The translations under genes were made by a program, and so were the position numbers. A stretch of DNA of 52,723 nt, taken from NCBI GenBank assembly GCA_009773005.1, contig WOUT01000014.1, positions 1 through 52,723 of the forward strand, written 5' to 3'. Below are positions 5,969-44,051 of the stretch, in pieces; position 1 is the first letter of the stretch; every line of letters begins with the position of its first letter. The stretch is from Chloroflexota bacterium. GTDB taxonomy: Bacteria > Chloroflexota > Anaerolineae > Anaerolineales > Anaerolineaceae. Below the pieces are notes generated by a model. It saw only the letters and a list, made by a program, of their open reading frames with translations. It had not been told where the DNA came from and did no database searches.

Positions 5969-6031
5969 GTCTGAAGATTTGAATAATTAATTTTGCAATA
6001 ACAATCGATGAATCATTCTTCTTTTTTGATT

Positions 6032-6160
6032 AGCGCCTGCCACTGCACACTCAACCTGGCGCTCATCATCGCCGACCTCGCAGGCAGCGGGGCAATCGCT
6101 CATACCCATTTGATTGAGGTATCGCAATGCCCGCCAATAGTGAAAACGATTTATCGATAG
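6032..6160 (+). pseudogene. Decayed C-terminal fragment of a ComM/YifB (Mg-chelatase-like) gene
   Basis: Reading forward from 6032 gives SACHCTLNLALIIADLAG and then HTHLIEVSQ before a stop at 6158. This matches the C-terminal ComM/YifB family pattern SARAYHRVLKLARTIADLAG...AHLAEAIQYR, with many substitutions and no upstream domain. It is therefore a relic, not a gene. A second copy of the same segment lies at 9207-9297. The 480-base stretch 5969-6448 otherwise holds no gene I can support. It contains a run of 12 G at 6272-6283. Confidence 0.6.
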
Positions 6161-6271
6161 ATCAAATTAATAAATACTCACAGGTGTCCGTTGATAATTT
6201 CATAAGCAATTATCATTTTGAATTCGAATACGATAGGTGGTGATTTTGCAATCAGGGAGTAGGTCACCTGT

Positions 6272-6283
6272 GGGGGGGGGGGG
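6272..6283 (+). repeat. Homopolymer of 12 G
   Basis: Twelve consecutive G lie about 166 bases upstream of the WD40 lipoprotein start, in non-coding sequence. Such tracts slip during replication and are also error-prone in sequencing, so the exact length is uncertain. Confidence 0.9.
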
Positions 6284-6448
6284 CCAGCAATATCTTCATC
6301 AAGAATATTGAAATTGATAAATAAGTATGCAATAATCCTTATATAGTCCTGTTGTTTCTCCAAAAACCTATCCATTGAAGAGGGTTAATCCAACACTCCG
6401 GTTTCATTTCCCCGATCGTTTTTGTGGAATCAGGAGGAGGATTGCTAT

Positions 6449-7429
6449 ATGAAAACTCCCAAGTTTAGAATCACCGTGATTCTAATTCTTTTTTTCATTT
6501 GTGGATGTAAAACTCAAAAAGACATCGATCAGAACCAGATCAAGAATAACAGTTTTACCTTTCATGGGTCTGTGTCTACACTCACGCTTTCGTCACATGA
6601 TTACATGGTGGCCATTGGAGGTACATCAAACATCATTTCGAGATGGAATTATTCAACTGGGGTGATAATTGATGAAATTGAACTCGACGATAGAACAGGC
6701 ACTGTTTTTGCACTCGCCTTTTCTCCAGACGGGAAAATCTTGGCAACGCCTGAATATCCCCACGGACGAATCCTGCTATGGAATTTCACAGATCCTGTCC
6801 TGAAAACTTTAAAGTCAGACAAGATAAATGTGTTTTTTTGTATGACTTTTTCTCCTGATGGCTCGTTCCTCGCCTCAGGAGGAATGGACGGTACGATCTA
6901 TTATTGGAACGTAGATTCTGAAAAATTAGAAAAAACTTTCGGGCCTCAAAAAGACATGGTCATGGGCATTGCTTTTTCTCCAGATGGTAAAACGATCGTT
7001 GCAGGGTATTATGATGGAGCTGTAATCCTTTGGGATGTTTACTCAAGTCAAAAAATCCTCACTTTTGAAGGGCACACGGGTAGTATTGCCGGTGTGGTTT
7101 TCTCACCCGACGGTCAGACAATCGCATCTGGAAGTTTAGATAACTCAGTCATTTTATGGGACACTTCAACAGGGAAACAAATCGACAAGATTATCGCGGA
7201 CGATAAAATTACCAGTATTGCATTTTCTCCAGATGGTAGAGTCGTGGCATTCTCAGACCCAATCCAAATCAACCTTTGGAACTTGAACAAAAAAGAGATC
7301 GTGGCGACTTTCGATGGACATCAGGAAACAGTAAACGCGCTAGTGTTTTCACCGGACGGTAAAAAACTCATCTCAGGCTCTGAGGACACCACCGTAAGGG
7401 TATGGGATTTGGCCGGATCAGGAGATTGA
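6449..7429 (+). CDS. WD40-repeat lipoprotein (seven-bladed propeller)
   Basis: 326 residues. A short signal peptide ends in a lipobox (ICGC, lipidated Cys20), so the protein should be anchored outside the cell membrane. The rest is seven WD40 blades, most with the FSPDG turn followed by a W-[DN] blade end. Together they form one complete propeller, a protein-interaction platform with no enzyme motif. Start chosen at 6449, 9 bases after AGGAGGAGG at 6432-6440, rather than at the in-frame ATG at 6422. It is followed after 3 bases by the HEAT-repeat lipoprotein gene, so the two are probably co-expressed and may act together. Partner and pathway are unknown. Confidence 0.88.
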   Translation: MKTPKFRITVILILFFICGCKTQKDIDQNQIKNNSFTFHGSVSTLTLSSHDYMVAIGGTSNIISRWNYSTGVIIDEIELDDRTGTVFALAFSPDGKILATPEYPHGRILLWNFTDPVLKTLKSDKINVFFCMTFSPDGSFLASGGMDGTIYYWNVDSEKLEKTFGPQKDMVMGIAFSPDGKTIVAGYYDGAVILWDVYSSQKILTFEGHTGSIAGVVFSPDGQTIASGSLDNSVILWDTSTGKQIDKIIADDKITSIAFSPDGRVVAFSDPIQINLWNLNKKEIVATFDGHQETVNALVFSPDGKKLISGSEDTTVRVWDLAGSGD

Positions 7430-7432
7430 CCT

Positions 7433-9118
7433 ATGATACACATCCGATTCATCACTTCTTTATTAATAATCGTATGCATAATGGGTTGTGCATCGGTTCC
7501 TGAAAAAACAATCCCTGTACCTTCAGGAAAGTATGCAACGTTCGAATTTCCTGATCCTGAAGATATTTTGGCAACCTACATGGCGAGTTTACCATCGATC
7601 ACTCCTACTCTCACACCTACCCTTACTTCAACAATCACTCCGACTCCGACTCTTCCTTCTATAGAGGAAGTTGCTCAAAAATACAAAAACGAGATTCGCC
7701 CGCTTTTAGCCAAATTAAATACAGCAGAATCAGTCAGCGAATATACATTACCAGCCTCTTCGACTTGGCAGATCCATTTAATCCCTTCCAGTGAGAGGGA
7801 ATATTTGTTCCAGTATCTACTTTTTGGTGATCAAAAGTTTGGCAATCCCGATGGTCAAACCCAATTATTTATAACCTATTCCTATCAACGGGAGGGGTGC
7901 TTAAGTATCACTGGATTGGGATGCGACGTAGAAAAAGTAAAAATCATCAGCCGGTTGTATATCAAAGAAGGAGAATCGTATTATCAATTGGAAGAATTAT
8001 CGCCAGGAAGTGGAGGAATTGGAGCCCATTCCTGGGAGGAGATTATTATACGGTCAGTAAATTCATATAAAACATTAGGAGAACAAACGCAAAAAATCGA
8101 AGAAAAAATGGAGACCTTAATGTTGTATATCGGTGGTGTTGGTCCAAGATCTGACAATACTCGGCACAGAATTTTTCAGCCTGCATTTAATGCCCAGATC
8201 GCGATCTTGAAACTCGTGCTCTCCAGCCCATACTTGTCTGACCGAAGAGCCGCGCTTGATTCCCTTCAATGGATCGGCCCCGATGCGGTGGATGCTGTTC
8301 CGGAGATAATAAATGCATTGTACGATGAAGAGGATCGTGTGATTAGTATCGCTATCAGTGCGCTTGGAAGAATCGGACCAGGAGCAGTTGCTGCGGTTCC
8401 AGATTTGATGCAGATATTTCAAGAAAAGAATAAGTGGTACAGTTGCGATGCTGCATATGCACTTGGAAGTATCGGGGAGGGAGCCTTTGAATCCATTCCC
8501 GTGTTGATCGCTGAGATTGAAACGAATGGTAAATGTCTGAAAAAGGCTGCAGAAGTATTGGGGCAATTTGGGGAAGCGGCAGCACCGGCTGTTTCTTCAT
8601 TAATAAAATTACTTAATAACGAAAACGACGAGATCAGAGAATTAACTGTCAGAGCCTTAGGAAATATCGGTGAACCTGCCTCGGAAGCAATACCATCATT
8701 GATCAAAAGACTCGATGACAAAAATAAAAAGGTCTGGTGTGGAGCGGTTGTCGCGCTATCCAAAATTGGGAAAATTCCCGCTGAGACGGCTCCAACTTTA
8801 GCAACACTTTTGGATCAAGGTTACTGTATGGGGGCGCTTATTGACACATTGGAATTAATGGGTCCTGATGCAGCTCTAGCGGTTCCCGCACTCATCAAAA
8901 TCCTTGATCATGAGTACATGTCGATTTCTGCAGTAAAGGCGCTGGGTGCGATAGGCTCAGCAGGAATTGAAGCTATTCCGGCTTTGATTTTTATGCTGGA
9001 AACAGGGAATTATGGAAAAAGAGAAGCTGCCCAAAAAGCCATGGTACAAATCATCGGTCAGGACCTTGGTAATCAACCTGCAGCCTGGCGGCAATGGTGG
9101 GGTGAAAATAAACCGTAA
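7433..9118 (+). CDS. HEAT-repeat (PBS-lyase-like) lipoprotein
   Basis: 561 residues. A signal peptide with lipobox IMGC (lipidated Cys19) is followed by a Thr/Pro-rich linker (about residues 60-82), a middle domain (90-240) of no recognised family, and roughly eight HEAT/PBS-lyase-type helical repeats from about residue 265 to the end. Each repeat reads like AVPALI..L.d....vr..A..ALG.IG. No catalytic motif is visible, so this is probably an extracytoplasmic scaffold. The start lies 3 bases after the WD40 gene, with AGGAG inside that gene's end. The pair sits between two decayed ComM fragments, which hints at an inserted cassette. Confidence 0.85.
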   Translation: MIHIRFITSLLIIVCIMGCASVPEKTIPVPSGKYATFEFPDPEDILATYMASLPSITPTLTPTLTSTITPTPTLPSIEEVAQKYKNEIRPLLAKLNTAESVSEYTLPASSTWQIHLIPSSEREYLFQYLLFGDQKFGNPDGQTQLFITYSYQREGCLSITGLGCDVEKVKIISRLYIKEGESYYQLEELSPGSGGIGAHSWEEIIIRSVNSYKTLGEQTQKIEEKMETLMLYIGGVGPRSDNTRHRIFQPAFNAQIAILKLVLSSPYLSDRRAALDSLQWIGPDAVDAVPEIINALYDEEDRVISIAISALGRIGPGAVAAVPDLMQIFQEKNKWYSCDAAYALGSIGEGAFESIPVLIAEIETNGKCLKKAAEVLGQFGEAAAPAVSSLIKLLNNENDEIRELTVRALGNIGEPASEAIPSLIKRLDDKNKKVWCGAVVALSKIGKIPAETAPTLATLLDQGYCMGALIDTLELMGPDAALAVPALIKILDHEYMSISAVKALGAIGSAGIEAIPALIFMLETGNYGKREAAQKAMVQIIGQDLGNQPAAWRQWWGENKP

Positions 9119-9604: not shown

Positions 9605-10639
9605 ATGGAAAGCAGATCGACAATAGCAACGACTGAACCGCTTCTGGAAGTAAAGGGTCTGAAAACCTATTTCTATACAGAAGACGGGATCGTCAAAGCT
9701 GTAGATGGTGTCGATTTTTCGGTTAAAGCGGGAGAGGTTTTAGGCATTGTTGGCGAATCAGGTTGTGGCAAGAGCGTTACCTCATTATCGGTTATGCGCC
9801 TGGTCGGAATACCTGGGAAAATCACAGGCGGAGAAATTCTTTTCGAAGGAAAAGATCTGCTTAAACTTTCTGAGGAAGAAATGACAAAGATGCGCGGTGA
9901 CCGCGTTTCGATGATCTTTCAACAACCCCAATCCAGCTTAAACCCGGTGTTTCGCGTTGGTGACCAGGTGGCAGAAGTATTACAGATCCACAAAAAGATG
10001 AATAAGAAGGAGTCTTTTCAAAAAGCAATTGAACTTCTTACTCTGGTTGGGATTCCTGACCCAACACGAAAAGCCTACGCATACCCGCATGAAATGTCAG
10101 GGGGGCAGGCACAGCGAGTAATGATCGCCATGGCGTTGGCTCTTTCACCAAAATTATTGATCGCTGATGAACCAACCACTGCGCTTGATGTAACAATCCA
10201 GGCACAGATTTTAGATTTAATACGCGGACTGCGAGAGAAAATAAACACCGCTGTCATACTGATCACACATGATTTGGGAGTGATTGCAGACATTGCCGAG
10301 CAAGTGGCGGTGATGTACGCTGGTGAGATCGTAGAGTACTCAGGGGTAAAACCGCTGTTTGGCACTCCACTGCACCCTTATACGCAGGGGCTGATCGGTT
10401 CGATCCCGGTTCTCGGGAAAGTCGTTGAGCGGTTGGATGTCATCCCAGGGATCGTTCCAAATTTAATCGATTTGCCCAATGGCTGCCGTTTCTCTCCCCG
10501 CTGCCGTGCTCGTATTGAAAATCATCTTGATATTTGTGGTCAGGTAAAACCAGATCTCACAGAAGCGCTTCCAGGGCATAAAGTGAGCTGCTGGTTGTAT
10601 CAAAACACTGACGGACACCAATCACCTGTTCAATTGTAA
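9605..10639 (+). CDS. dppD: Peptide ABC importer, ATP-binding subunit (DppD/OppD type)
   Basis: 344 residues; hydrolyses ATP to drive peptide uptake through the two permeases encoded downstream. Seen: Walker A GESGCGKS (residues 50-57), the Q-loop, signature MSGGQAQR, Walker B LLIADEPTTALD, the switch His in ITHDLG, and the C-terminal oligopeptide-transporter extension with its Cys cluster (GCRFSPRC). Start placed at the ATG at 9605, with GGAG 6 bases upstream, rather than at the TTG at 9584. First gene of the five-gene set; the next ATPase begins 27 bases later. Substrate (di- or oligopeptide, or nickel) cannot be told from sequence. Confidence 0.92.
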   Translation: MESRSTIATTEPLLEVKGLKTYFYTEDGIVKAVDGVDFSVKAGEVLGIVGESGCGKSVTSLSVMRLVGIPGKITGGEILFEGKDLLKLSEEEMTKMRGDRVSMIFQQPQSSLNPVFRVGDQVAEVLQIHKKMNKKESFQKAIELLTLVGIPDPTRKAYAYPHEMSGGQAQRVMIAMALALSPKLLIADEPTTALDVTIQAQILDLIRGLREKINTAVILITHDLGVIADIAEQVAVMYAGEIVEYSGVKPLFGTPLHPYTQGLIGSIPVLGKVVERLDVIPGIVPNLIDLPNGCRFSPRCRARIENHLDICGQVKPDLTEALPGHKVSCWLYQNTDGHQSPVQL

Positions 10640-10666
10640 TTTCGAACGAGGACTTGAAGAGGATCT

Positions 10667-11677
10667 ATGACTGAAGCCAATCTGCAACATCGTGAACCTC
10701 AAAAAGATTTTTTGGCTGTAAAAAACCTTAAAAAATATTACTCTGTACGTGGTGGTGTATTTCAAAGAGTCGTTGCCCAAGTACAAGCCGTAGATGACGT
10801 CAGTTTCACAATTAAGCCCGGTGAGACATTGGGTTTGGTGGGTGAATCAGGGTGTGGTAAGACGACTATAGGACGGACAATCTTACGGTTGACCGAACCC
10901 ACAGCTGGTTCCATTGAATTTGACGGTGCAGAGCTTTTTAAATTAAAAGGTGCAGAATTAAAGGCAGTTCGCCGCGATATGCAGGTCATTTTCCAGGATC
11001 CATATGCCTCCTTGGACCCCAGGGTTTCGATTGGTGAATCTATTATGGAGGGCTTGGGAATCCATAATATTGGTGACACGAAAGAACGCTACGAAATTAC
11101 CCTTGCCACCCTAAAAAAAGTGGGACTGGAAGAGTATCATGCCAGACGCTATCCGCATGAATTTTCTGGCGGTCAAAGGCAGCGTATCGGCATTGCCCGG
11201 GCGTTGGCGCTGCGCCCCCGCTTTATTATCTGTGATGAACCGGTATCCGCGCTGGATGTCTCTATTCAGTCCCAGGTGCTGAACATCCTGAAAGATTTAC
11301 AGGCAGAATTTGGACTTACATACCTCTTTATCGCTCATAACCTGGGGGTGGTCGAACACATTTCCAACCGTGTGGCGGTTATGTATTTAGGCAAAATGGT
11401 TGAATTGACAAACCGGGACGAATTATTCCGTAATCCTTTACATCCCTACACCAAGGCATTGATGTCAGCGATCCCGATCCCCGATCCCACCTTGAAGCGA
11501 GAACGGATCATCTTAAAAGGAGACGTACCTAGCCCAATTAACCCGCCAAAAGGCTGCCGTTTCCATCCCCGCTGCCCGGTGGCAATCGCGGAGTGCAATA
11601 AAAATGAACCACCTTTCCTCGAAATCAACCTTGGTCATGCAGTGGCCTGTTGGGTTGCCCAGAGGTTGAAACTATGA
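10667..11677 (+). CDS. dppF: Peptide ABC importer, ATP-binding subunit (DppF/OppF type)
   Basis: 336 residues; the second ATPase of the importer, forming a heterodimer with DppD. Walker A GESGCGKT (residues 59-66), signature FSGGQRQR, Walker [13 protein letters not shown] and switch His (IAHNLG) are intact. The C-terminal family extension GCRFHPRCP with later Cys residues is present. Good ribosome site (AAGAGGATCT). It is followed by a 128-base spacer that carries a hairpin and then the binding-protein gene. A decayed copy of this protein's tail lies after the operon at 15770. Confidence 0.92.
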
Positions 11678-11754
11678 AATAAAAATCACACAAAAGGTGT
11701 TGATCTTGACCCCAAGGAGGTGAGGCAATAAGAAAAAATATTGTTCGCTCAAAT

Positions 11755-11774
11755 GAGTTTCCATGTGGAAACTC
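11755..11774 (+). other. Intercistronic hairpin before the binding-protein gene
   Basis: Perfect 9-bp arms GAGTTTCCA / TGGAAACTC with a 2-base centre, followed by GATTTT. It sits between dppF and the binding-protein gene. It could protect or process the mRNA so that the binding protein is made in excess, or act as a weak terminator or operator. Confidence 0.5.
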
Positions 11775-11805
11775 GATTTTGCCCGATTTTTTGGAGGAGA
11801 AAATA

Positions 11806-13518
11806 ATGAAACAGAAAAAAGTACTTGCTTTGTTTAGTGTCATCGTAATCGCAGCTATGTTTTTAGCAGCATGCGTTACAAAGACACCCGTTGCTACACA
11901 AGCCCCCGTGGTGACTGAAGCCCCGGTCGTTGCTAATCCGCTGCAGATCACTCTTTCTTTCCGCGTGGTTGACCGTGCCTACCTGCCTTCGCCTGATAAA
12001 GTAGCTCAGGAAATTCAGGCTCAATTGAAAGAGGTGGGTATTGTTGTCACACTTGAGGAAATGGAATCCGCCGCATTCATAGATGCCACATCAGCTGGTC
12101 AGAAACCATTCTATCTGCTTGGATGGAACGCCGATTATCCTGACGCTACCAACTTTTATGACTATCACTTCGGCAATGCCAACAACAAGCAGTTCGGGAA
12201 TCTCTACCAGGACATGGTGGATGAAATTTCAGCAGCAGGCAAGCTCTCTGATGCAGACGCCCGTCAGACTCACTACGACACGATCAATCAAATGCTAAAA
12301 GACTACTTAATGATGATCCCTGTTGCACATGGTGGCTCTTCGACTGCCTACCAGGCGAATGTAGTGGGTGCACATTCCAGCCCGCTTGGCAACGAGAACT
12401 TCAGTGTTGTAAGCAAAGGAACCGACACATTTGTCTGGATGCAGAACGGCGAACCCGCCTCTCTGTGGTGCTCTGATGAAACTGACGGCGAGACACTGCG
12501 CGCCTGCGAGCAGGTTTATGAATCCCTGCTGGCCTTTAGCGTTGGTGGTACAGACGTCATTCCTGCACTCGCAGAAAGCTACACTCCAAACGCAGATTTG
12601 AATGAGTACACTTTCACATTACGTCAAGGTGTCAAGTTTCACAATGGCGCCGCATTTGACGCCAATGACGTTGTTGCTTCTTATGTTGCCCAGTGGGATG
12701 CTGCCAGCCCGAATCATGTTGGCCGTACCGGCACCTTTGAGTACTTCGGTGCTTTCTTCGGTAGTTTCGTCAACGCTGAAGCCGCGACCGTATCCCTGAC
12801 CGATACCAATGGATTGCTCTCCATGGTTTCTCCGGATTGTGAATATGGTGGTGAATTTAAATCCATCGAAGCCGTCGACGCCAACACTGTCAAGTTCACC
12901 CTCTGCTTCCCTGATCCCGCCTTCCCTTCGAAGGTTGCCTTTACCGTCTTCAATATTCAGGATAAAGATTTCCTCGATTTGAACAACGGTGATTCAGTGA
13001 AAATGAGCGGATCTCCTAATGGCACAGGTCCATATATTGTAAAAGCATGGAACCGTGGTGACAAAGTGGTCTTTGAAGCCAATCCCAATTACTGGGGTGA
13101 TAAAGCGCTCACCCAGAACCTGATCTTCCGCTGGTCTGAACAATCGGCACAACGATTGCTCGAGCTCCAGGCTGGAACTGTGAATGGAATCGACAACCCA
13201 GGGCCGGATGATATTGCGACAATCGAGGCTGATTCTAACCTCAAGCTCTATCCTCGCGAGGGGTTCAATATCTTCTATATAGGTTTTAACAATACGATTC
13301 CACCCTTTGACAACCCGGATGTTCGCCTTGCCATTTCTTACGCGATCGACCGCCAAAGGATTGTAGAACAGTACTATGCGAAGGGTTCAAGCGTGGCAAT
13401 CAATTTCGTCCCGGCGTTCCTCAAGCCCGGCGCCAGCCTCGACAACCCCTGGTTTGATTTCGACCAAGCCAAGGCCAAAGAACTTCTTGTTAAAGCCGGT
13501 TATACCGTATCTAAATAG
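11806..13518 (+). CDS. Peptide-binding lipoprotein (SBP_bac_5 family), circularly permuted
   Basis: 570 residues; captures peptides outside the cell for the importer. Lipoprotein signal peptide with lipobox LAAC (Cys23) and a Thr/Pro/Val linker to about residue 45. Odd domain order: residues 46-202 read as the usual C-terminal part of the family (VAQEIQAQLKEVGI, YLLGWNADYPDATNF, the IPVAHGG segment). Residues 206-570 read as the usual N-terminal part (GEPASL, QVYESLL, LAESYTPNADL, LRQGVKFHNG) and end at AKELLVKAGY, the point that normally leads into the segment found at residue 46. The two halves together make one full-length protein in permuted order. Start at 11806, with GGAGGAG at 11793-11799. 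Family is certain; the permutation is my alignment from memory. Confidence 0.88.
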   Translation: MKQKKVLALFSVIVIAAMFLAACVTKTPVATQAPVVTEAPVVANPLQITLSFRVVDRAYLPSPDKVAQEIQAQLKEVGIVVTLEEMESAAFIDATSAGQKPFYLLGWNADYPDATNFYDYHFGNANNKQFGNLYQDMVDEISAAGKLSDADARQTHYDTINQMLKDYLMMIPVAHGGSSTAYQANVVGAHSSPLGNENFSVVSKGTDTFVWMQNGEPASLWCSDETDGETLRACEQVYESLLAFSVGGTDVIPALAESYTPNADLNEYTFTLRQGVKFHNGAAFDANDVVASYVAQWDAASPNHVGRTGTFEYFGAFFGSFVNAEAATVSLTDTNGLLSMVSPDCEYGGEFKSIEAVDANTVKFTLCFPDPAFPSKVAFTVFNIQDKDFLDLNNGDSVKMSGSPNGTGPYIVKAWNRGDKVVFEANPNYWGDKALTQNLIFRWSEQSAQRLLELQAGTVNGIDNPGPDDIATIEADSNLKLYPREGFNIFYIGFNNTIPPFDNPDVRLAISYAIDRQRIVEQYYAKGSSVAINFVPAFLKPGASLDNPWFDFDQAKAKELLVKAGYTVSK

Positions 13519-35445: not shown

Positions 35446-36648
35446 ATGGAGACCAACAACAGATCACTACCCAACATGCCTGTAAATCGCAGCCGCGCCA
35501 CGGATGCAGAAAACAGGCCCCAAACCGAAGCGTTCGCTCGCATTAAAGTGATCGGAGTGGGCGGCGGCGGTTGTAACGCTGTCAATCGCATGATTGACGA
35601 AGGCGTTCAGGGAATCGAGTTCATTACTGTGAACACTGACGCCCAGGCGCTTGTCATGTCAATGGCGCAGACCAAAGTCCGCATTGGTGATAAGACCACC
35701 AGCGGTCTTGGCGCTGGCGGCAACCCGGATGTCGGTCGTAAATCAGCCGAAGAATCCTCTGAGGAATTGTACGAAACCCTCAAGGGCAGCGATATGGTCT
35801 TTGTCACCGCCGGTATGGGCGGGGGCACAGGCACAGGCGCCGCCGCTGTTGTGGCGCAGATCGCAAAGGAAGTCGGCGCTCTGACCATTGGCGTGGTTAC
35901 CCGCCCGTTTACCTTTGAAGGATCCAAACGCTTGCAAGCTGCCGAGCAAGGTATCGCCCGCCTCAAGGAACACGCTGATACTCTCATCGTCATCCCCAAC
36001 GACCGTCTGCTCCAGATCGTAGACCGAAAAGCCACTTTGCAGGATTCATTCAAGACCGCAGATGACGTATTGCGCCAGGGCATACAGGGAATTTCAGAGT
36101 TGATCACCGTCCCTGGTTTGATCAACCTCGACTTCGCCGACGTGCGCACCATCATGTCGGAGGGCGGAGCTGCCCTCATGGCAGTCGGTCGCGCCTCGGG
36201 TGAGGACCGTGCCCAAAAAGCCGCTGAGCAGGCTATCTCCAGCCAACTGCTAGACATTACCATCGACGGCGCCCGGGGCATCCTCTTCAACGTCACCGGC
36301 GGACCCAGCTTGACCTTGTTCGAGGTCAACCAGGCCGCTGCCATTATCAAAGAAACCGCCCACCCCGATGTCAACCTGATCTTCGGTGCCGTGATTGACC
36401 CGACAATGGGCGATGACCTGCGGATTACCGTCATTGCTACGGGTTTTGATCAGGCTGGCATTCGATCGGCCAGCAGCGCCCAGACTTCCCGCTTTGACCC
36501 AACTCGTATTGTTCAGCGCCCCACCATCGGCGAACCGATCGAAGTGGACGTAAACAGACGAGGAGATAGTGTTTTTGAGCCGCGCGTCATTGACACGAAA
36601 GACCTCAATGTACCCGCATTCCTGCGCAACCGTCTCAACGACAAATAA
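35446..36648 (+). CDS. ftsZ: FtsZ, tubulin-like Z-ring GTPase
   Basis: 400 residues. [15 protein letters not shown] (residues 36-50), [16 protein letters not shown] (near 88), [14 protein letters not shown] tubulin signature (near 126), the NDRLL and DFADVRTIM segments, and a C-terminal conserved tail region ([15 protein letters not shown]). Strong GGAGGAAA ribosome site. Last gene of the dcw operon. C-rich codon use suggests high expression. Confidence 0.97.
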
Positions 36649-36698
36649 GCAGAGATTAAGGTTTATGGTTAAAGTTGATGTTGTTCCTCCATAGAACG

Positions 36699-36777
36699 AC
36701 AGGCTCTCGCTTGGCGGGTTGAGTCTGTGCGAATGCATAAATTTCGGCTGGCGGTTGGTCACTGCCAGCCGTTTTCT
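36699..36777 (+). terminator. Terminator of the dcw operon, preceded by a second hairpin
   Basis: Stem CGGCTGGC (36745-36752) / GCCAGCCG (36764-36771) followed by TTTTCT. Just upstream, ACAGGCTC (36699-36706) pairs with GAGTCTGT (36721-36728), one G-U pair, around a 14-base loop. The rest of the 494-base gap 36649-37142 is AT-rich and holds a promoter at 37009. Confidence 0.8.
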
Positions 36778-37008
36778 AATAATACGAATTGGTTGTGTTT
36801 TAATCAGAACCGTTTTGAACGGATATTTGACATTTTTTTCCCAAAAAAACCTTTCCTCCCTTTTACTCTTCACTTAACGATATTTGTGACAATCCAATTT
36901 GGCGAGAATACTCCAATCGGATAGATCATGATTTGAAACATACTTCAATTCGTGAATGAACATTTTTCACAAACCTTTGCTTAACTCTCTTCATATTTTT
37001 GTTTTTTC

Positions 37009-37037
37009 TTGTAATATGTCGGTTTTAGTGATATATT
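37009..37037 (+). promoter_or_regulatory. Candidate promoter of the small exported protein gene
   Basis: -35 TTGTAA (37009-37014), 17-base spacer, -10 TATATT (37032-37037), about 105 bases before the start codon at 37143. Confidence 0.5.
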
Positions 37038-37142
37038 CTGTAAAGTTATTGTAAGGTATTTTTACGGTAATTATATATCAATTCAATCCGATTATCGTTA
37101 AAATATCTTCAATCGTAATATCATTCGCTTAAGGAGAATAAA

Positions 37143-37502
37143 ATGTTCAAGAAAAGTATGAAGACCCTGATTTTAGTCGTTGTCATTATCGCTCTCTCTG
37201 GATTCACATTTGCCTATGCCGCTGCTAACACTGTCAATAGTTCATATGCAGGCGATGGAGTTGGCACAGTTTCTGGTTACAATGTGACGAATGTCGTCTA
37301 CAACCTCAACGCCATTAACCCTGCCAACATTGACTCCGTTTCATTCACATTGAACGCCGCTGCAAACCTCGTCAAAATACGCCTTGTAAGCGCTTCAACC
37401 ACTTGGTACAACTGCAATACGGGCACAGCCATCACATGCACAACCGCTGGCGCAACTGTTGCTGCTGCGGATACACTACAAGTTGTTGCCTCCAGCAATT
37501 AG
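37143..37502 (+). CDS. Small exported fibre/pilin-like protein, probable SipW-type signal peptidase substrate
   Basis: 119 residues. Basic start, hydrophobic stretch (about 9-24), then AYAAANTV, a likely cleavage region. The mature part (about 92 residues) is rich in Ala, Thr, Val, Asn and Ser, with beta-strand pattern (GVGTVSGYNVTNVVYNLN, NIDSVSFTLNAA) and two Cys (CNTGTAITC) that could form a disulphide. It resembles TasA/camelysin-like or uncharacterised exported beta-proteins, not a classical type IV pilin (no GFxxxE). Strong AAGGAG site. It lies next to the signal-peptidase fusion, whose other neighbour carries a similar AAxNTV junction; I infer that the peptidase processes both. Confidence 0.7.
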   Translation: MFKKSMKTLILVVVIIALSGFTFAYAAANTVNSSYAGDGVGTVSGYNVTNVVYNLNAINPANIDSVSFTLNAAANLVKIRLVSASTTWYNCNTGTAITCTTAGATVAAADTLQVVASSN

Positions 37503-37586
37503 GCTTATCATCGTCTCAACCGGATTGAGGAAACTTTATTGTATCGTTGAAAATGTTCGCTCTCTAAGTTACTTGGTCCAACTAAT

Positions 37587-37647
37587 AAAAAACCAGGCGT
37601 GCTATAATGGCAAATTGTGATTAATTCACAATCAGTCCTGGTTTTTT
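37587..37647 (+). terminator. Terminator hairpin with a promoter nested in its loop
   Basis: Outer stem AAAAAACCAGG (37587-37597) / CCTGGTTTTTT (37637-37647); inner stem ATTGTGA (37614-37620) / TCACAAT (37626-37632). Between the left outer arm and the inner stem lies an extended -10, TGCTATAAT (37600-37608). Transcripts reading through from 37143 would form the full hairpin with its T-run and stop. Transcripts starting at about 37615 lack the left arm and could pass. Confidence 0.6.
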
Positions 37648-37665
37648 TAATGGCATAAAATACTT

Positions 37666-40110
37666 ATGAGTGTCAAACGGCGTTGGTTCTATAATTTCTT
37701 TGCAGGTTTTGCCCTTGTATTGGCCGCTATCTTCTGGATTCTCTTTGCTCCTGTCCGTCTTGGCGGGCAAAACGAATATATTCTCATCAATGGCAACAGC
37801 ATGGAACCAGCCATCAAGCAAGCTGACCTCATCATCGTTCGCAAGTCTGATTTTTACCGGGTCGGCGATGCCGTGGCTTACCGCAGCCCGGAACTGAAGA
37901 ACGTTGTCTTCCATCGCATCATCGGGTTGGAACTGGACCGTTATATTTTTCAGGGTGACAATAATGATTGGATTGATTCATATAAACCAAATATTTCTGA
38001 CCTGATTGGAAAACAGTGGATCCGTATCCCAAATGCCGGAAAAGTTGTAGAATGGATTCGAAAGCCGCTTTTTGCAGCGTTGCTGGTTGCCGGGTCGGGA
38101 GGTATCATTTTGGGATTTCTATTCAATAAATCCAGGAAGAAAAAAGTTGGAACAACAGTGGATCCGATCTCCAGGTTCAAGGAAGGCGTTATTAAAACTT
38201 GGGACACAACTTCACGTTCAGAAAACGCTATCCCTTCATCTGCGATCACTGTGAACCCTCCTTTTTCAGAGCCAGAACATAGTAGATCCAGTCAAATGTT
38301 AAAAGCCCGCCATTTAAATGGAGTCATTGAGGTTAGTTTCTTTTTATTGGGTTTATTCGCGCTCGCATCTCTGGCTTTGGGCGCTTTTGCCTTCTTTAAT
38401 CCCCTCACCCGCCTTACCACGCAGAATAACCTTTATCACCAGAAAGGCACATACACCTATAACGCGCCCGCCCCGGCCGGGGTATACGATTCTCAAATGG
38501 TAAAATCTGGCGATCCGGTTTTTACAAAACTCACATGTAGCATGAAATTATTGTTTAATTATGCAATCATGGCTGATGGTCTGCAAAATCTCACCGGAAC
38601 ACACCAGATAACTGCCGTTCTTTCAGACCCCACCAGCGGTTGGACAAGGGTGATCCCCTTGGAACCGCTTCAGACTTTCAACCAGGATAATTTCAGCAGT
38701 CAGGTTCAAGTCGATCTCTGCCAGATGCAAACCATCACAAAGGAGATGGAAGCGCAAACCGGTATGACTTCCTATAATTATTCCCTCGCTTTAAGCCCAA
38801 ACGTGACCATCACCGGGCAATTGCAAAATGCAGACTTTAATGACACCTTTACCACCCCGTTGGTTTTCCAACTTGATGCAGTACGCGCTTATATGGTCAA
38901 ATCTGATCCACAAATTGATCCTCTCAACCCTATCAAAGATGGAATCGCAAAATTTGAATTTATCGAGCCAAACTCTCTGACCATACTAAATATAAAAATA
39001 CCTGTTGCTTCAGCTCGAACTCTATCCATGCTTGGTTTTTCCGTCTCCTTGGTAGGGTTGCTGGTATTGTTAACCCTCATTTCCCACACCTCCAGGCGGA
39101 GCAAGGAAATGCTCATTCGTATGAAGCACGGTTCTTCTATGATTGACGTTGAGTCTTCAGACATTAGCCTTACCCGGTCAGCTGTGGATGTATTGGATAT
39201 CGATGACCTTGCCCGCCTGGCAGAACAAAACAACACTGTCATACTGCACGAAGCCCGGGGATGGCTGCATACGTATCTTGTTGAAGCAGACCAGATCACT
39301 TACCGGTATACTCTGAATGACGCACAGGAAACCTCCAAAATTGAGCAACACCAGGAGAGCCGCGTAAGCGCTTTCAACCTTCAACAAGGTATCAAAAATG
39401 GAGAATTTAAAGTCTTCTATCAGCCGATTGTATCCATTCTGGATAGGCGAATCCTGGCTGTTGAAGCTTTGCTGCGCTGGCAGCACCCGCAAAACGGGCT
39501 GCTTTCTGCAAAAGATTTCATCAATCAGGCAGAAACAACCGGGTTGATTGATACACTTGGAGAATGGATGCTGCAAGAAGCCTCCAGGCAGGTTAAAGAG
39601 TGGCGCAAGAACGGCTTTCCACTACGCCTGGCAGTAAATTTCTCCCGGAGTCAGATCGAAAAACAGCCCGCCCGTTTAATTTCTCAAGTACTGGACCGAA
39701 CGGGCATGAGTCTGGACGCGTTGCAAATCGAGATCTCGGAAACCAGCCTCATAAAGAACCCCGAGTTGATATTCTCTAATTTAATGGAACTGCAAAAAAT
39801 GGGAGTTCATCTTTCAGTGGACGGTTACACTGGTGATTCCTCGCTAACAAATTTAAAACAGCTTCCTTTTGAGAGCATCAAGATCGACCGCAATCTAATT
39901 ATGAAACTTGACCAGCCCCAGGAAGCAGAATATGTGCAAGGCATCATTTCAGCGGCTCTCGACCGGGGTTTGAACGTCGTCGCGGAGGGCGTTGAAAACC
40001 GCTTCCAGATGAATATGCTGCGATCACAATATTGCTCTCAAGCCCAGGGTTATCTAATCGCGCGTCCCGCACCCGCAGTAGAGATTTCTGCCCTGCTTTC
40101 GGGTAAATAA
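37666..40110 (+). CDS. SipW-like signal peptidase fused to DUF5305-like region and degenerate EAL domain
   Basis: 814 residues. Residues 1-130: membrane-anchored type I signal peptidase of the ER/SipW class, with Ser45 in GNSMEP, His83 in VFHR (in place of bacterial Lys) and the GDNN motif (97-100). Helices at about 136-153, 222-246 and 445-466. The extracellular part between the last two (about 250-440) resembles DUF5305, a common partner of SipW-type peptidases. After a cytoplasmic linker with a DIDDLARLAEQN helix (about 505) comes an EAL domain (576-812): EALLRW (E600), AVNFS, EISET, KIDR, AEGVEN and QGYL are kept, but the DDFGTG loop reads VDGYTGDSS (718-726), losing one Asp and one residue. 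Phosphodiesterase activity is doubtful; cyclic-di-GMP sensing is possible. No clear ribosome site. Confidence 0.85.
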   Translation: MSVKRRWFYNFFAGFALVLAAIFWILFAPVRLGGQNEYILINGNSMEPAIKQADLIIVRKSDFYRVGDAVAYRSPELKNVVFHRIIGLELDRYIFQGDNNDWIDSYKPNISDLIGKQWIRIPNAGKVVEWIRKPLFAALLVAGSGGIILGFLFNKSRKKKVGTTVDPISRFKEGVIKTWDTTSRSENAIPSSAITVNPPFSEPEHSRSSQMLKARHLNGVIEVSFFLLGLFALASLALGAFAFFNPLTRLTTQNNLYHQKGTYTYNAPAPAGVYDSQMVKSGDPVFTKLTCSMKLLFNYAIMADGLQNLTGTHQITAVLSDPTSGWTRVIPLEPLQTFNQDNFSSQVQVDLCQMQTITKEMEAQTGMTSYNYSLALSPNVTITGQLQNADFNDTFTTPLVFQLDAVRAYMVKSDPQIDPLNPIKDGIAKFEFIEPNSLTILNIKIPVASARTLSMLGFSVSLVGLLVLLTLISHTSRRSKEMLIRMKHGSSMIDVESSDISLTRSAVDVLDIDDLARLAEQNNTVILHEARGWLHTYLVEADQITYRYTLNDAQETSKIEQHQESRVSAFNLQQGIKNGEFKVFYQPIVSILDRRILAVEALLRWQHPQNGLLSAKDFINQAETTGLIDTLGEWMLQEASRQVKEWRKNGFPLRLAVNFSRSQIEKQPARLISQVLDRTGMSLDALQIEISETSLIKNPELIFSNLMELQKMGVHLSVDGYTGDSSLTNLKQLPFESIKIDRNLIMKLDQPQEAEYVQGIISAALDRGLNVVAEGVENRFQMNMLRSQYCSQAQGYLIARPAPAVEISALLSGK

Positions 40111-40148
40111 ATAGCGATAGCTTTGCTTTAAAAAAGTTTGGAGTTTTT

Positions 40149-40562
40149 ATGAAATGGTACAGAAACACCCATTTGATTGTTGCCGCCTCTGCTTTCATTC
40201 TGATCGGGTTGATCATCGCGATGAGCCTTACAGCTCTGGCTGCGTCGAATACTGTGCCGTTGACCCGCCTGGATCAGGTCGCGCGTGCCAAACTGATCGC
40301 TGATTTTAGACCCGCAGGCTGTGCCGGTATGACATTGGTCAATTTTGTTTTTTGCACAGGAACCAAGCTTTGCAACGGAACGAACCAAGCTGATCTCATT
40401 CTTGGCGACTCTGCAAATAATAACATCAGCGGGAAAAATGGCGGAGACTGTATTATTGCTGGTGGAGGTGATGATACAGTAAACGGTGCGAACGGTTCGG
40501 ATGTCTGCATCGAAGGACCCGGAAACGACAATTATTCAAGCTGCACTGTTGTCAACCCTTAA
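40149..40562 (+). CDS. Small exported RTX-like (haemolysin-type Ca-binding repeat) protein
   Basis: 137 residues. A long N-terminal hydrophobic segment (about 9-32) ends ALAASNTV, like the junction in the protein at 37143. The C-terminal half has degenerate RTX nonapeptides: NQADLILGDSANNNISGKNG, GGGDDTVNGANGSD. Six Cys in the mature part suggest disulphides in place of some calcium sites. Located 38 bases after the signal-peptidase fusion, so probably co-transcribed and processed by it. No protease or lipase domain is attached, so it is not a classical RTX toxin. The 413 bases after it hold no gene, only the nrd promoter region. Confidence 0.72.
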   Translation: MKWYRNTHLIVAASAFILIGLIIAMSLTALAASNTVPLTRLDQVARAKLIADFRPAGCAGMTLVNFVFCTGTKLCNGTNQADLILGDSANNNISGKNGGDCIIAGGGDDTVNGANGSDVCIEGPGNDNYSSCTVVNP

Positions 40563-40812
40563 AAACCAACGCAGACATTGTTCACTGACATCACAAACCA
40601 TCTTCAACTTCTATCATGTTTTTTAAGTTTTCCCATCTTTTTTTAATTTGAGAATTATTCTCTCCCTCTAAGGTATCTTTTCCGCTAATTCATGAAATCT
40701 TTTCAATAATTATGCCAATTTCTTCCTGATCTGTGCCCTGACGCCAGTGTACTTTCAAGTAAAAAAATGATTAGGTTCATTTTCTTTTAAGATTAAAATT
40801 CGACAGGGGATA

Positions 40813-40841
40813 TTGAACTGTTCACTTCTTTGTGCTATTAT
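40813..40841 (+). promoter_or_regulatory. Promoter of the nrdR-nrdJ operon
   Basis: -35 TTGAAC (40813-40818), 17-base spacer, -10 TATTAT (40836-40841) with an extended TG-C just before it. Predicted transcription start about 40848. Confidence 0.75.
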
Positions 40842-40846
40842 AGATG

Positions 40847-40892
40847 GCATAGATATACGGTTACTTTCTTCACATCCCCCTATATATGGGGG
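40847..40892 (+). promoter_or_regulatory. Pair of NrdR-box-like sites
   Basis: Box 1 GCATAGATATACGGTT (40847-40862) and box 2 CCCCCTATATATGGGGG (40876-40892), both with an AT-rich TATAT-type core. The centres are about 30 bases apart, close to three helical turns. NrdR represses ribonucleotide reductase genes through paired boxes at this spacing, and the sites directly follow the predicted start, so autoregulation is likely. Confidence 0.6.
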
Positions 40893-40975
40893 ATAGTTTT
40901 TCAGGATGAACACTCTCGCCCCAACGCCGGTGGTCTCAACCGGATCTATCATCATACACTCACGAGGAGGGATTT

Positions 40976-41425
40976 GTGCGCTGTCCGTATTGTCAGGATG
41001 ACAACTCAAGGGTTTTAGACACAACTCACGACAGCCGCGGAGGGGTGCGCCGCCGCCGCGAGTGCGAACACTGCAAACAGCGCTTCTCAACTTACGAGCG
41101 CCCAATTCTCGCCAGCCCGCTCATCATCAAGCGCGCCGGAACGCGCGAGGAATTCAATCGCGAAAAGCTGCTGGAGGGTATCCGCATTTCCTGCGCCAAA
41201 CGCCCCGTCTCCGCCGCCGATATTAACCACCTGGTCAGCGAGATCGAGACCAACCTCCAGAAAATGGGGCGCGAAGAAGTCTCTTCCCGGGTCGTGGGCG
41301 ACATGGTTATGAATGGACTCAAATCCCTCGACCAGATCGCCTACATCCGATATGCTATCGTTTACCTTCAACTCAGTGATCTGCAATCCATTCGCAACGA
41401 AATTGATCGACTTTTAGAAGTTTAG
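40976..41425 (+). CDS. nrdR: NrdR, transcriptional repressor of ribonucleotide reductase
   Basis: 149 residues. N-terminal zinc ribbon (CPYC at 3-6 and CEHC at 31-34), followed by RFSTYER, then the ATP-cone domain (VIKR-type [17 protein letters not shown], near 49) that senses ATP/dATP. GTG start with CGAGGAGGG upstream. It lies 10 bases before nrdJ, its direct target. Confidence 0.96.
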
Positions 41426-41435
41426 GAGTTTCAAC

Positions 41436-44051
41436 ATGGAAACCAGCACTCATACTTCGCAGCGCTCCTTGCTAGACATCGGCACAATGCCCAAAGACTT
41501 GCCCGCCGTGGACCTGACGGATAACGCCCGCCAGGTGCTCATCAAACGCTATGTTCGCCGCGGAGCAGACGGACAGCCCTCCGAGACCGTGGAGGAGATG
41601 TTCTGGCGCGTCGCCATCAATATCGCCGCAGTCGAAGAAAAGTGGTCCACTGACGTGGAAACCCTGGCGCGCAAATATTACGTTCTGCTTACCTCCAAAG
41701 CCTTCTTTCCCAACTCACCCACCTTCACCGGCGCCGGCACCCCGCTTGGGCAACTCGCCGCCTGCTTCGTCCTCCCCATCAATGATGACATGGGGCGCGA
41801 TTCCGCCGGCATCTTCCAAACCCTGCGAGACGCCGCTCTCATCCAGCAGACCGGCGGCGGCAATGGATTCTCCTTCTCCCGCCTGCGTCCCAAGGGTTCG
41901 CTCGTTAAAACTTCCTCCGGTGAAGCCACCGGTCCGGTCGGCTTCCTGCGCGTCTATGACAACGCCTTCGGTGAGGTCGCCCAGGGTGGCACCCGCCGCG
42001 GCGCCAACATGGCCGTTCTGCGTGTGGATCACCCGGATGTGGAAGAATTCATCACCTGCAAGACCAACGAAAACCAGATCACCAACTTCAACATTTCTGT
42101 CGGCATCACTGACCTCTTCATGACCGCCGTGGAAGAAGACCGCGAATGGTCTTTGCGCTTCCCTGATCTCAGCGACCCTCGCTCCAAGGGCTTCAAAGGC
42201 ACCTTCGAACAAGCCGAAGCCCAGGGCATCCCCTTCCGCACCCATAAGACTATCCGCGCCCGCGACCTCTTTGAAAAGATCGTCAAGCAGGCTCATCACA
42301 ACGGCGAACCCGGACTGCTCTTTTTAGATGCCGCCAACCGCGGAAACCCCGTCCCGCACCTCTACCAGCTCGAAGCCACCAATCCCTGCGGTGAACAGTG
42401 GCTCGGACCCTACGAGAACTGCTGCCTAGGCTCCATTAATCTCGCCCAGCACCTCGGGTCTGAACATTCGGTGGATTGGGACAAATTGCGCGAAAACACC
42501 CGCCTCGCCACCCGCTTCCTGGATGATGTCGTGGACGCCAATTCCTATGTGCCCGCCGTGCCGCAGCTCCATGAGGCCGCCTTGCGCGCCCGCCGCATCG
42601 GGCTCGGCATCATGGGTCTCGCCGACCTGATGTACCACGTCGGTGTGCGTTACGGCTCCCCCGCCGGCGAGGATTTCGGCGCCCAGGTGATGGAATTTGT
42701 GCGCTACACCTCCATGCAGACCAGCATCGAGCTGTCGCGCGAACGCGGAGCCTTCCCAGCCATCGAAGGCAGCATCTACGACCCCACCCACTTGCTCTGG
42801 CAGCCGCCTGTTTCTCCCTTCGAGAACCAGCAGTACTGGTCCCGCCCGCCCCTCGATTGGACTCTCATCACCGAGGGCATCAAGCGTTACGGCATCCGCA
42901 ACGCTGCCCAGACCACCGTCGCCCCCACGGGGACGATCGCCACTGTCGCCGGGTGTGAAGGCTACGGCTGCGAACCTGTCTTCGCTCTCGCTTACATTCG
43001 TCATGTCAATGACAATGGCAAGGATCTCAAACTCACTTACGCCAGCCCCATGTTCGAACAGGCGCTCATCGAATCCGGCGTTTCAGATATGGACAGGCAG
43101 GATATCTTCGATCAGGTCATGCGCGAAGGCACCTGCCAGAACATCACCGCCGTGCCCGACCGCGTGAAAGAGGTTTTTGTGGTCAGCGCGGATATCACCG
43201 CTGAAAACCACGTGCGCACCCAGGCTGCCCTTCAAGCCTTCGTGGATAATTCGCTTTCCAAGACCGTCAACTTCCCCGAGAACGCCACCGAAGAAGACGT
43301 CGCCACCGCGTATATGACCGCCTGGCAGCTCAACTGCAAGGGTATCACCGTCTACGTCACCGGTTCTCGCGATCAGGTCGTGCTCGAAACGCACGGCACC
43401 GCGGGCAAGAAAGCCCCTGTCACGTCTCAAGAAGACCAGATCAAGATCTGGCAAGAGACCAAGAAACCGCGCCCGCGCGCCCTGCTCGGGCAGACCTACT
43501 CGGTGGAGACCCCCCTCGGCAAAGCCTTCATCACCATCAATGAGAACGGCTCCGACCAGCCCTTTGAGATCTTCATCAACACCGCCAAAGCCGGCTCAGA
43601 TACCGCCGCGGTCAGTGAAGCCATCGGACGCCTCATCTCTTACGTACTGCGTCTCTCCTCGCCCATCGAACCCACCCAGCGCCTCACCGATCTCACCCGC
43701 CAGCTCGGCGGCATCGGCGGCGGACGCTCGCTCGGTTTCGGACCCAACCGCGTGCGCTCCCTGCCGGACGGCGTCGCCCAGGTGCTGGAAGAATACCTCA
43801 ACGAACGCGCCGTGCGCATCGGCAAGAACGAAGCCGGTCATTACGAAAGTATGCACACCCTTGTTGAGAACGTCTCAGACGTGCAGGCCATTACCGAAAA
43901 GGTCATCAAGGGCGTCACCGCGCTGGAATCTCCCGCCGCCGTCCTCGGCGCGCCCAAGATCGGCGACCTCTGCCCCGAGTGCGGCGTGGCCGCCGTCATC
44001 AATGAAGAGGGCTGCCGCAAATGCTACTCATGTGGGTATAGCGAGTGTTAG
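41436..44051 (+). CDS. nrdJ: Class II (adenosylcobalamin-dependent) ribonucleotide reductase
   Basis: 871 residues. Makes deoxynucleotides without oxygen. Seen: the [15 protein letters not shown] start of the barrel, [14 protein letters not shown], the finger-loop [21 protein letters not shown] (NPCGE, active-site Cys in the loop), [18 protein letters not shown], and the C-terminal zinc/redox tail CPECG...[12 protein letters not shown]. No iron-subunit gene lies near, as expected for class II. Markedly richer in G+C and C-ending codons than the genes downstream, probably from high expression. No cobalamin riboswitch was recognised upstream. Confidence 0.96.

Follow-up and report, generated by a model that had tools for sequence, protein, structure and literature searches.

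A Chloroflexota signal peptidase fused to DUF5305 and a degenerate EAL domain, a candidate for control by cyclic-di-GMP

In a 52,723-nucleotide stretch of Chloroflexota DNA (the window, by which we mean this whole stretch), a single ATG-started frame joins a signal peptidase, a DUF5305 domain, and a cytoplasmic EAL domain in one chain. Judging from their residues, the EAL domains of this fusion, and the HD-GYP domains found at the same place in other genomes, are selectively broken as enzymes. We consider it fairly probable that the protein is a one-chain, cyclic-di-GMP (c-di-GMP)-responsive receptor of the LapD/LapG kind that gates a dedicated signal peptidase, with ligand binding, gating, and cleavage all being predicted activities.

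RESULTS

Domain architecture and membrane topology

The features of the locus are collected in Table 1. The original prediction, that one frame joins a signal peptidase to DUF5305 and to an EAL domain in the cytoplasm, is borne out by profile searches and by the topology of the structure model. EAL (PF00563, residues 572 to 801) scored 198.3 bits against a Pfam gathering cut-off of 31.3, and DUF5305 (PF17231, residues 328 to 548) scored 46.6 bits (gathering cut-off, 29). For the peptidase part, Pfam Peptidase_S24 (residues 38 to 103, 28.8 bits; cut-off, 23.3) and the NCBIfam model of archaeal-type signal peptidase I, TIGR02228 (53.9 bits; cut-off, 51.85), both pass, and the Pfam Peptidase_S26 model stays below its cut-off (17.5 versus 22.9 bits); the proposed search for EAL and S26 signatures came out in favor of the fusion. 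Ser45 and His83, the residues singled out in the original prediction and which we take to be the catalytic pair of the S26B domain, are invariant in all 14 aligned rows. By sequence, then, the protein is an archaeal/ER-type (S26B) signal peptidase with putative cleavage activity. Archaeal-type signal peptidase I is paired with DUF5305 in archaea, and the window protein likewise passes both models.

Table 1. Features of the fusion gene and its neighbors (window coordinates)
Feature	Position	Strand	Basis
Candidate substrate 1, small secreted protein, 119 aa; signal segment, then A-A-N-T-V	37143..37502	+	
A-A-N-T-V of candidate substrate 1 (residues 27-31), directly after its hydrophobic segment	37221..37235	+	
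Fusion gene, S26B signal peptidase-DUF5305-EAL, 814 aa, one ATG-started frame	37666..40110	+	
Membrane helix 1 (residues 12-30)	37699..37755	+	Hydropathy; model puts helix at 3-27
Signal peptidase fold, extracytoplasmic (residues 36-121; Ser45, His83, G97-D98)	37771..38028	+	Profiles, alignment, model
Membrane helix 2 (residues 135-153)	38068..38124	+	Hydropathy
Membrane helix 3 (residues 225-243)	38338..38394	+	Hydropathy
DUF5305 extracytoplasmic beta domain (residues 248-446)	38407..39003	+	Pfam, model
Membrane helix 4 (residues 454-472)	39025..39081	+	Hydropathy
Helix 553-577, linking the small cytoplasmic domain and the EAL barrel	39322..39396	+	Model
EAL domain (residues 572-801)	39379..40068	+	Pfam, model
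Altered DD loop V718-S726	39817..39843	+	Alignment
Candidate substrate 2, small secreted protein, 137 aa, RTX-like repeats	40149..40562	+	
A-S-N-T-V-P of candidate substrate 2 (residues 32-37), directly after its hydrophobic segment	40242..40259	+	

The structure model and hydropathy give four membrane helices, with the S26 and DUF5305 domains on one side of the membrane and the EAL barrel on the opposite side. The pLDDT is 94.4 for residues 238 to 577, and residues 555 to 559 fall below 50; the helix that contains them (residues 553 to 577) is, in the model, a possible signalling helix. Foldseek with the DUF5305 model returned no match at E values up to 0.001, and the top VIA-align row was RbmA (Z score 8.8, RMSD 2.6, 105 aligned). 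Because this Z score is little above the stated background (7 to 8), DUF5305 is described here as a beta sandwich and nothing finer, and its assignment to a known fold was rejected; that other families are missing from the VIA-align rows carries no weight. A riboswitch governing the operon was likewise rejected, as neither the window nor any of six relatives gave a match at Rfam gathering cut-offs.

EAL or HD-GYP on one scaffold in relatives

The search for the same architecture in relatives, which the original prediction had proposed, was productive: the S26B-DUF5305-EAL fusion occurs within a single taxonomic order, in 23 frames from 22 genomes of three families, the window included, which leaves 22 further frames in 21 other genomes. 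In 11 more genomes, HD-GYP, an unrelated c-di-GMP domain, occupies the place of EAL, and 39 of the 72 near-full-length relatives lack a c-di-GMP domain; long frames were fetched deliberately, and these counts (23, 11, and 39) are not frequencies. All 33 frames of at least 700 residues from three surveys terminate in EAL or HD-GYP. Pfam matches cover 17 of the 23 fused EALs, the others being assigned by alignment, and all 11 fused HD-GYPs, with the tails in the HD-GYP comparison classed by reading. The DUF5305 model passes in five of the eight relatives scanned; two score below its cut-off (L010, 24.2; L013, 27.2), and one HD-GYP form (L018) has no DUF5305 match at E values up to 0.01, but all three still align through the family alignment profile. 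Among named organisms, a contig search with the full-length alignment returned ordinary EAL proteins, with the peptidase core at 0 of 80 loci (frames of at least 200 residues); the core was also found in 0 of 24 of the genomes of those proteins, a weak negative without a positive control.

Residues kept and lost in the EAL domain of the window

The EAL motifs named beforehand (E600, the Asn, ISE, KIDR, and the QGYL region) are present as E600, N658, E689/E692, K739-I-D741-R, and Q794-G. The DD loop, which the original prediction had called shortened and altered, is indeed so: it reads V718-D-G-Y-T-G-D-S-S726 versus the canonical DDFGTGYSS, with the second Asp replaced by Gly720 and one residue missing, and D719-G720 stands in place of the intact DDFG metal-binding loop. 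E600, N658, K739, and the base Glu, E774, are all kept; apart from the loop and its second Asp, nothing is missing from this EAL. We strongly infer that the fused EAL has lost hydrolysis while keeping its ligand pocket, and would thus read c-di-GMP rather than destroy it.

Selective degeneration of the fused domains

Q586, E600, R604, N658, K739, and Q794 are each kept in 23 of 23 fused EALs. Some of these residues (E600, N658, and K739) are also needed by active enzymes, so that what is retained does not serve binding alone. The invariance bears on an alternative that we regard as unlikely, in which EAL and HD-GYP bind no ligand and merely dimerize the protein or hold a partner, for instance a GGDEF protein, near the translocon. 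Degenerate EAL domains can indeed act as protein-binding parts, and the HD-GYP protein RpfG is reported to interact with GGDEF proteins (PMC4159591); free scaffolding, however, would not need invariant pocket residues such as Q586, R604, and Q794, and it is also opposed by the occurrence, at the same place, of two folds that are unrelated but have a ligand in common.

Catalytic residues fare differently. Of the 23 fused EALs, 5 keep the second Asp of DD and 7 keep the base Glu; at least 1 of 13 tested residues is lost in 22 of them, and DDFG is found in 0 of 23 versus 16 of 17 unfused controls showing the region. In the same genomes, 15 of 18 unfused EALs are intact, these controls being the unfused matches above cut-off (20, two of them without a locus) and including one cut by a stop (L143), one without a start (L166), and one divergent sequence (L163); a partial match under the cut-off (G000:C29) was left out. 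Fisher values for the comparison of fused and unfused EALs take no account of relatedness. For HD-GYP, the catalytic Lys is kept in 0 of 11 fused domains versus 26 of 26 unfused ones, the latter drawn from 30 loci returned, with a bias to high scores, for the 11 HD-GYP genomes and the window's genome; the HD pair is retained in 6 of the 11 fused domains. The selective loss in fused as opposed to unfused domains agrees with the bind-but-not-cut type of change that had been suggested for the window's EAL.

An active phosphodiesterase as the main role was rejected for most members on this loss of catalytic residues. The same losses, set against the intact unfused domains, render rather improbable an outside-in arrangement, in which DUF5305 or the peptidase would sense a substrate or a surface state and control a still active (or trigger) phosphodiesterase in the cytoplasm, even though Pfam recognizes a clear EAL, trigger phosphodiesterases are known effectors (PMC5052742), and the EAL of L004, alone among the 23, has lost none of the 13 tested residues and could remain able to cut c-di-GMP. 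GGDEF domains occur in 26 of 26 genomes checked, and 6 of 16 genomes have no EAL other than the fused one; therefore, the ligand is likely made, and the fused EAL is not likely to serve as a general hydrolase.

Two families of small secreted proteins flank the fusion gene

By clustering, the upstream family is present at 30 of 41 loci (close and on the same strand at 27) and the downstream family at 31 of 41 (close and on the same strand at 28). A profile of the upstream family finds it in all 21 searched genomes that have the peptidase versus 0 of 7 same-genus genomes without it. Both families share A-x-N-T-V in the signal region, in which the Asn is invariant (N29 in 26 aligned upstream rows, the motif Asn in 27 downstream rows), with L119 (upstream) and L114 (downstream), from which the motif is absent, excluded from these alignments. 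A strict motif pattern missed 9 of the 55 flanking proteins picked, and in 7 of these 9 the Asn is in place by eye. In candidate substrate 2, RTX (PF00353) matches two stretches at 17.7 against a gathering cut-off of 23, and GGxGxD-like repeats are seen in the 27-row alignment of its family. The two flanking proteins are probably the targets of the fused peptidase, and cleavage would take place at the A-x-N-T-V site.

The c-di-GMP domain is missing from 8 of the 41 loci, 5 of which have both partners. Since these 5 loci keep their partners and 39 of 72 relatives do without the domain, the sensor is, on sequence comparison, an accessory to a module able to work without it. Absence of this extent would also suit a domain that only places the peptidase, without regulation, or one that does nothing and is decaying; we find this very improbable, as decay would not spare the pocket residues, which are invariant although the fused EALs of relatives have only 27 to 55% identity to that of the window.

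The joining of two genes by an assembly or annotation artefact, which the original prediction had proposed to look for as split genes in relatives, was rejected as hardly credible: the same frame recurs in 22 genomes, and its joint is shared by another kind of fusion. Nothing in favor of an artefact was found for the DUF5305-EAL joint; in G266, the peptidase part and DUF5305-HD-GYP are in different frames, a break that lies elsewhere in the gene. Frames are broken in the core of several relatives (e.g., G128, G266, and G374), which counts against the receptor reading favored here.

DISCUSSION

In the receptor model that we favor, the S26B domain outside the membrane would strip the signal sequence from the two dedicated partners encoded next to it, and the cytoplasmic EAL, with hydrolysis lost, would bind c-di-GMP as a sensor. 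Binding may bring about a change in helix 553-577 or in the EAL dimer that would be relayed through the small cytoplasmic domain and membrane helices 3 and 4 to DUF5305 and on to the peptidase, which, by analogy with LapD and DvhD, would be opened or closed to its substrate, c-di-GMP being either activating or inhibiting. In other lineages, the degenerate HD-GYP would do the job of EAL.

LapD of Pseudomonas fluorescens is a degenerate-EAL membrane receptor whose inside-out c-di-GMP signalling alters extracytoplasmic proteolysis (PMC3032553). As in LapD/LapG, a membrane protein here combines a degenerate EAL inside with an extracytoplasmic protease, presumably under c-di-GMP control; LapD, however, has HAMP and GGDEF and a separate protease, whereas in the window protein the protease is a signal peptidase and part of the one chain. 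The window protein has no Pfam match to HAMP or GGDEF before its EAL at E values up to 1 and fails the LapD model NF045673 (66.9 bits versus a cut-off of 1020). The HD-GYP form is paralleled by DvhD of Desulfovibrio vulgaris, which belongs to a Lap-like protease system and whose HD-GYP, inactive with HD changed to SQ, binds c-di-GMP; unlike the fusion, DvhD/DvhG has dCache and PAS domains, a separate protease, and an adhesin substrate (PMC13090378).

In Bacillus subtilis tapA-sipW-tasA, a dedicated signal peptidase gene lies between its two substrate genes (PMC4551309). The window gene has on both sides genes of secreted proteins, which are candidate substrates; TasA and camelysin models are not among the neighbors' matches at E values up to 1, a search in which HMMER filters drop weak ones. 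The SipW label of the original prediction is not supported as it stands: the SipW model NF046067 scores 23.4 bits versus a cut-off of 190, and a true SipW equivalog was rejected on this score, the protein being SipW-like in class only. Processing of matrix proteins, also proposed there, is unsupported for these partners. SipW is said to have a second, regulatory function (a finding attributed to Terra, 2012), and to our knowledge it has neither DUF5305 nor a c-di-GMP domain. FimX, an EAL relative among solved structures, is a degenerate EAL serving as a c-di-GMP receptor and, unlike the window protein, has no protease part.

Signal peptidases are usually regarded as constitutive, and c-di-GMP outputs in Chloroflexota have, as far as we know, been little studied. 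The literature searched, with most subscription papers outside its scope, yielded no case of a signal peptidase that carries EAL or HD-GYP in one chain and no mention of DUF5305, and the terms "peptidase" and "Chloroflex" are absent from a review of c-di-GMP sensing (PMC8846402). The chances seem to us evenly balanced that this is the first known second-messenger-gated signal peptidase, an old design with enzymatically dead EAL and HD-GYP as interchangeable plug-in sensors and c-di-GMP deciding, after synthesis, on the maturation of the two dedicated partner proteins. If so, signal sequence removal would join the steps under c-di-GMP control in a little-studied lineage, and DUF5305 would gain a testable role in transmitting from the sensor to the peptidase. 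That EAL and HD-GYP replace each other in nature on one scaffold, each with catalytic residues gone, offers a ready comparison for testing which features a c-di-GMP receptor requires.

Architecture of the window protein

The 814-residue window protein is encoded by a single frame with an ATG start, and the three domains of the original prediction, a signal peptidase, DUF5305, and EAL, are all found above their Pfam cut-offs. The peptidase is matched as Peptidase_S24 and lies under the cut-off of Peptidase_S26 proper (17.5 versus 22.9, Pfam); NCBIfam assigns the N terminus to archaeal-type signal peptidase I (TIGR02228; 53.9 bits versus 51.85). The protein is SipW-like in class only and fails the SipW equivalog model, with 23.4 bits versus the 190 required. 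The expected EAL motif residues are present, as is the shortened, altered DD loop at residues 718 to 726, which reads VDGYTGDSS, with D719 followed by G720 in place of the second Asp and one residue missing.

Features of the window protein and its surroundings
Feature	Position	Basis
Window protein frame	37666-40110 (+)	
Peptidase_S24	residues 38-103	Pfam, above curated cut-off
DUF5305	residues 328-548	Pfam, above curated cut-off
EAL	residues 572-801	Pfam, above curated cut-off
Hydrophobic segment 1	residues 12-30	
Hydrophobic segment 2	residues 135-153	
Hydrophobic segment 3	residues 225-243	
Hydrophobic segment 4	residues 454-472	
Small secreted protein (upstream partner)	37143-37502 (+)	
RTX-like secreted protein (downstream partner)	40149-40562 (+)	
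ftsZ	35446-36648	Pfam
nrdR	40976-41425	Pfam
Ribonucleotide reductase gene	41436-44051	reading only

The four hydrophobic segments would place the peptidase and DUF5305 outside and EAL inside, a topology to which the Lys plus Arg counts before and after each segment (3/1, 4/5, 2/1, and 2/5, in order) are a modest fit. The AlphaFold model agrees with this topology (mean pLDDT 81.9 for the whole chain and 94.4 for residues 238 to 577); because the whole-chain pTM is 0.46, its domains are trusted and their mutual placement is not. The structure aligning best with the DUF5305 sandwich (residues 18 to 170 of model mf1c1a61d01c2) is the biofilm scaffold protein RbmA, with a near-background Z of 8.8 (rmsd 2.6, 105 aligned).

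Distribution of the fusion among relatives

A 14-row profile built on the peptidase-DUF5305 core was scanned against overlapping samples of 147 family, 400 order, 396 class, and 400 phylum genomes. At E up to 0.001, 63 of the 147 family genomes matched, many of them just over a short stretch of the peptidase; with E limited to 1e-20, matches were found in 101/400 order, 25/396 class, and 43/400 phylum genomes. Among the loci fetched, 84 distinct frames match the core, fragments among them, and their C-terminal remainder is EAL in 23 (22 genomes; families f1, f8, and f12 of the window's order), HD-GYP in 11 (one each in 11 further genomes; families f12 and f13, likewise of that order, and f53 from its class), a tail of 65 to 153 residues in 22, and shorter in 28; long frames were fetched deliberately, so these class counts are not frequencies. 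Pfam itself matches 17 of the 23 fused EALs, the other six being assigned by alignment, and all 11 HD-GYPs. All 33 frames of at least 700 residues listed in the family, order, and class scans carry EAL (23) or HD-GYP (10); at the eleventh HD-GYP locus, L120 of genome G266, a different frame encodes the peptidase part. The same fusion across 22 genomes and three families rules out an assembly or annotation artifact. In the 16 phylum-scan loci read from outside the class, tails reach at most 90 residues, so these carry neither EAL nor HD-GYP.

On a quick-method tree of 72 near-full-length cores (23 EAL, 10 HD-GYP, 39 none), the tail labels are clustered, with five changes for EAL and two for HD-GYP, each matched in 0/500 shuffles, and seven for both labels together, matched in 0/200. 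The EAL form is spread over three families and has undergone several losses or gains, which the tree does not distinguish.

Among f12 relatives with no c-di-GMP domain, most have a low-complexity C terminus whose last part is a conserved peptide of the type EYVIxTGEIEF...LRKIKL; such tails are seen at loci L006, L009, L066 to L078, L081, and L101. In other classes of the phylum (L253 to L255, L258, L262 to L265), the same core bears a conserved tail of ~85 residues (W.D.FL.ALRE.GL..EAC...GID..TAY.ER...FA.AW..AR). By its sequence this tail resembles a small helical domain, and it might represent a third type of accessory domain.

Loss of catalytic residues in fused EAL and HD-GYP domains

When the 23 fused EALs were compared with 18 unfused ones from the same genomes, Q586, E600, R604, N658, K739, E777, and Q794 were each kept in 23/23 and E689 in 22/23; we take Q586, R604, and Q794 to be pocket residues. 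Retention is lower for the first and second Asp of DD (16/23 and 5/23), the Asp of KID (12/23), the base Glu774 (7/23), and E692 (11/23), and DDFG occurs in 0/23. All 13 residues are intact in one fused domain (locus L004) versus 15/18 unfused controls, the three exceptions being interrupted by a stop (L143), without an N terminus (L166), or divergent (L163). This selective degeneration supports the predicted resemblance to EAL domains that bind but do not cut c-di-GMP. In L163 (G022), nearly all catalytic and pocket residues are changed.

The metal ligands of PA3825 are Glu39, Asn98, both Asp residues of DDFGTG, Asp183, and Glu217 (PMC5301497), and our mapping suggests their counterparts in the window protein. 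LapD has an Arg just after its EAL motif at the center of the c-di-GMP site, and the loop sequence typical of active enzymes is not conserved in it (PMC3032553). The fused EAL is the sole EAL match in 6 of 16 genomes (G093, G154, G112, G156, G190, and G178); GGDEF domains occur in all 26 genomes checked, with 12 matches in the window's own.

The 11 fused HD-GYPs, compared with 26 unfused ones from those genomes and the window's, show a parallel loss. No fused domain retains the HDxGK Lys (0/11 versus 26/26), and the Asp of HD persists in 6/11 versus 26/26; the two His residues of HHE remain in 7/11 and 8/11 (the second in 24/26 unfused), the first His in 10/11, and the late Asp in 9/11, and GYP is kept in every fused and unfused domain. 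By numbering, the lost Lys is K225 of PmGH, whose replacement by Ala impaired activity as loss of a metal ligand does (PMC4159591). EAL and HD-GYP, unrelated enzymes with one ligand in common, were thus joined to the same scaffold and both lost catalytic residues; in our view, no other single observation speaks as strongly for a receptor role.

Neighboring genes as candidate substrates

Clustering of neighbors at 41 loci (L101 to L140 and the window) gave two widespread families, a small secreted protein upstream (30 loci) and an RTX-like secreted protein downstream (31 loci); no other cluster covers more than 6. Close, same-strand partners were picked at 27/41 (upstream) and 28/41 (downstream) loci; the downstream gene starts −76 to +124 bases from the peptidase stop, within 20 bases in 19/28 (longest frames). 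In both families, a hydrophobic segment is followed directly by A-x-N-[TIV]-V or a near variant. The Asn of this motif is unchanged throughout the alignments of 26 upstream and 27 downstream sequences, from which L119 (upstream) and L114 (downstream), lacking it as picked, were omitted.

Over 28 whole genomes, the upstream-family profile matched 21/21 with the peptidase and none of the 7 peptidase-free genomes of the same genus, of which three are at least 90% complete. Strong matches adjoin a peptidase gene, with the sole exception of G178:C6:44329, which lies 5 kb from one within its contig. The G048 match is split in two by a stop. Five weak matches (E 1.3e-4 to 0.009, model positions 4 to 46) fall on the downstream gene, indicating a signal region common to both partners, which we infer to be dedicated substrates of the peptidase. 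At 5 of the 8 loci that have no c-di-GMP domain, both partners are present, so the module can also occur with no sensor. No Rfam family reached gathering score in the seven sources searched.

Proposed mechanism and locus context

Beyond the observed architecture, conservation, selective degeneration, neighborhood, and co-occurrence, we propose that the EAL domain would bind c-di-GMP, that the signal would pass via helix 553-577, membrane helices 3 and 4, and DUF5305 to gate the peptidase, and that the latter would cleave the products of both neighboring genes. LapD/LapG and DvhD/DvhG are the closest working models; in the latter, an HD-GYP without metal ligands binds c-di-GMP and fills LapD's part (PMC13090378). 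One Lap-like system uses EAL and another HD-GYP, which independently parallels the exchange on the peptidase scaffold. Text searches of literature mostly outside subscription journals brought up no paper on a fusion of a signal peptidase with EAL or HD-GYP, as far as listings and abstract openings show, and no mention of DUF5305. As a kind of system, a single chain would combine a SipW-type dedicated peptidase operon with Lap-type inside-out control, both already known.

At positions 35446-44051 of the window, the module is placed between ftsZ and nrdR, with the ribonucleotide reductase gene beyond. Locus L111 (G269) carries tandem EAL-type peptidase genes (5387-7939 and 9838-12426) with an upstream-family match beside each, and at G709:C85:27054-27861 two upstream-family copies stand in a row before an HD-GYP-type peptidase gene.
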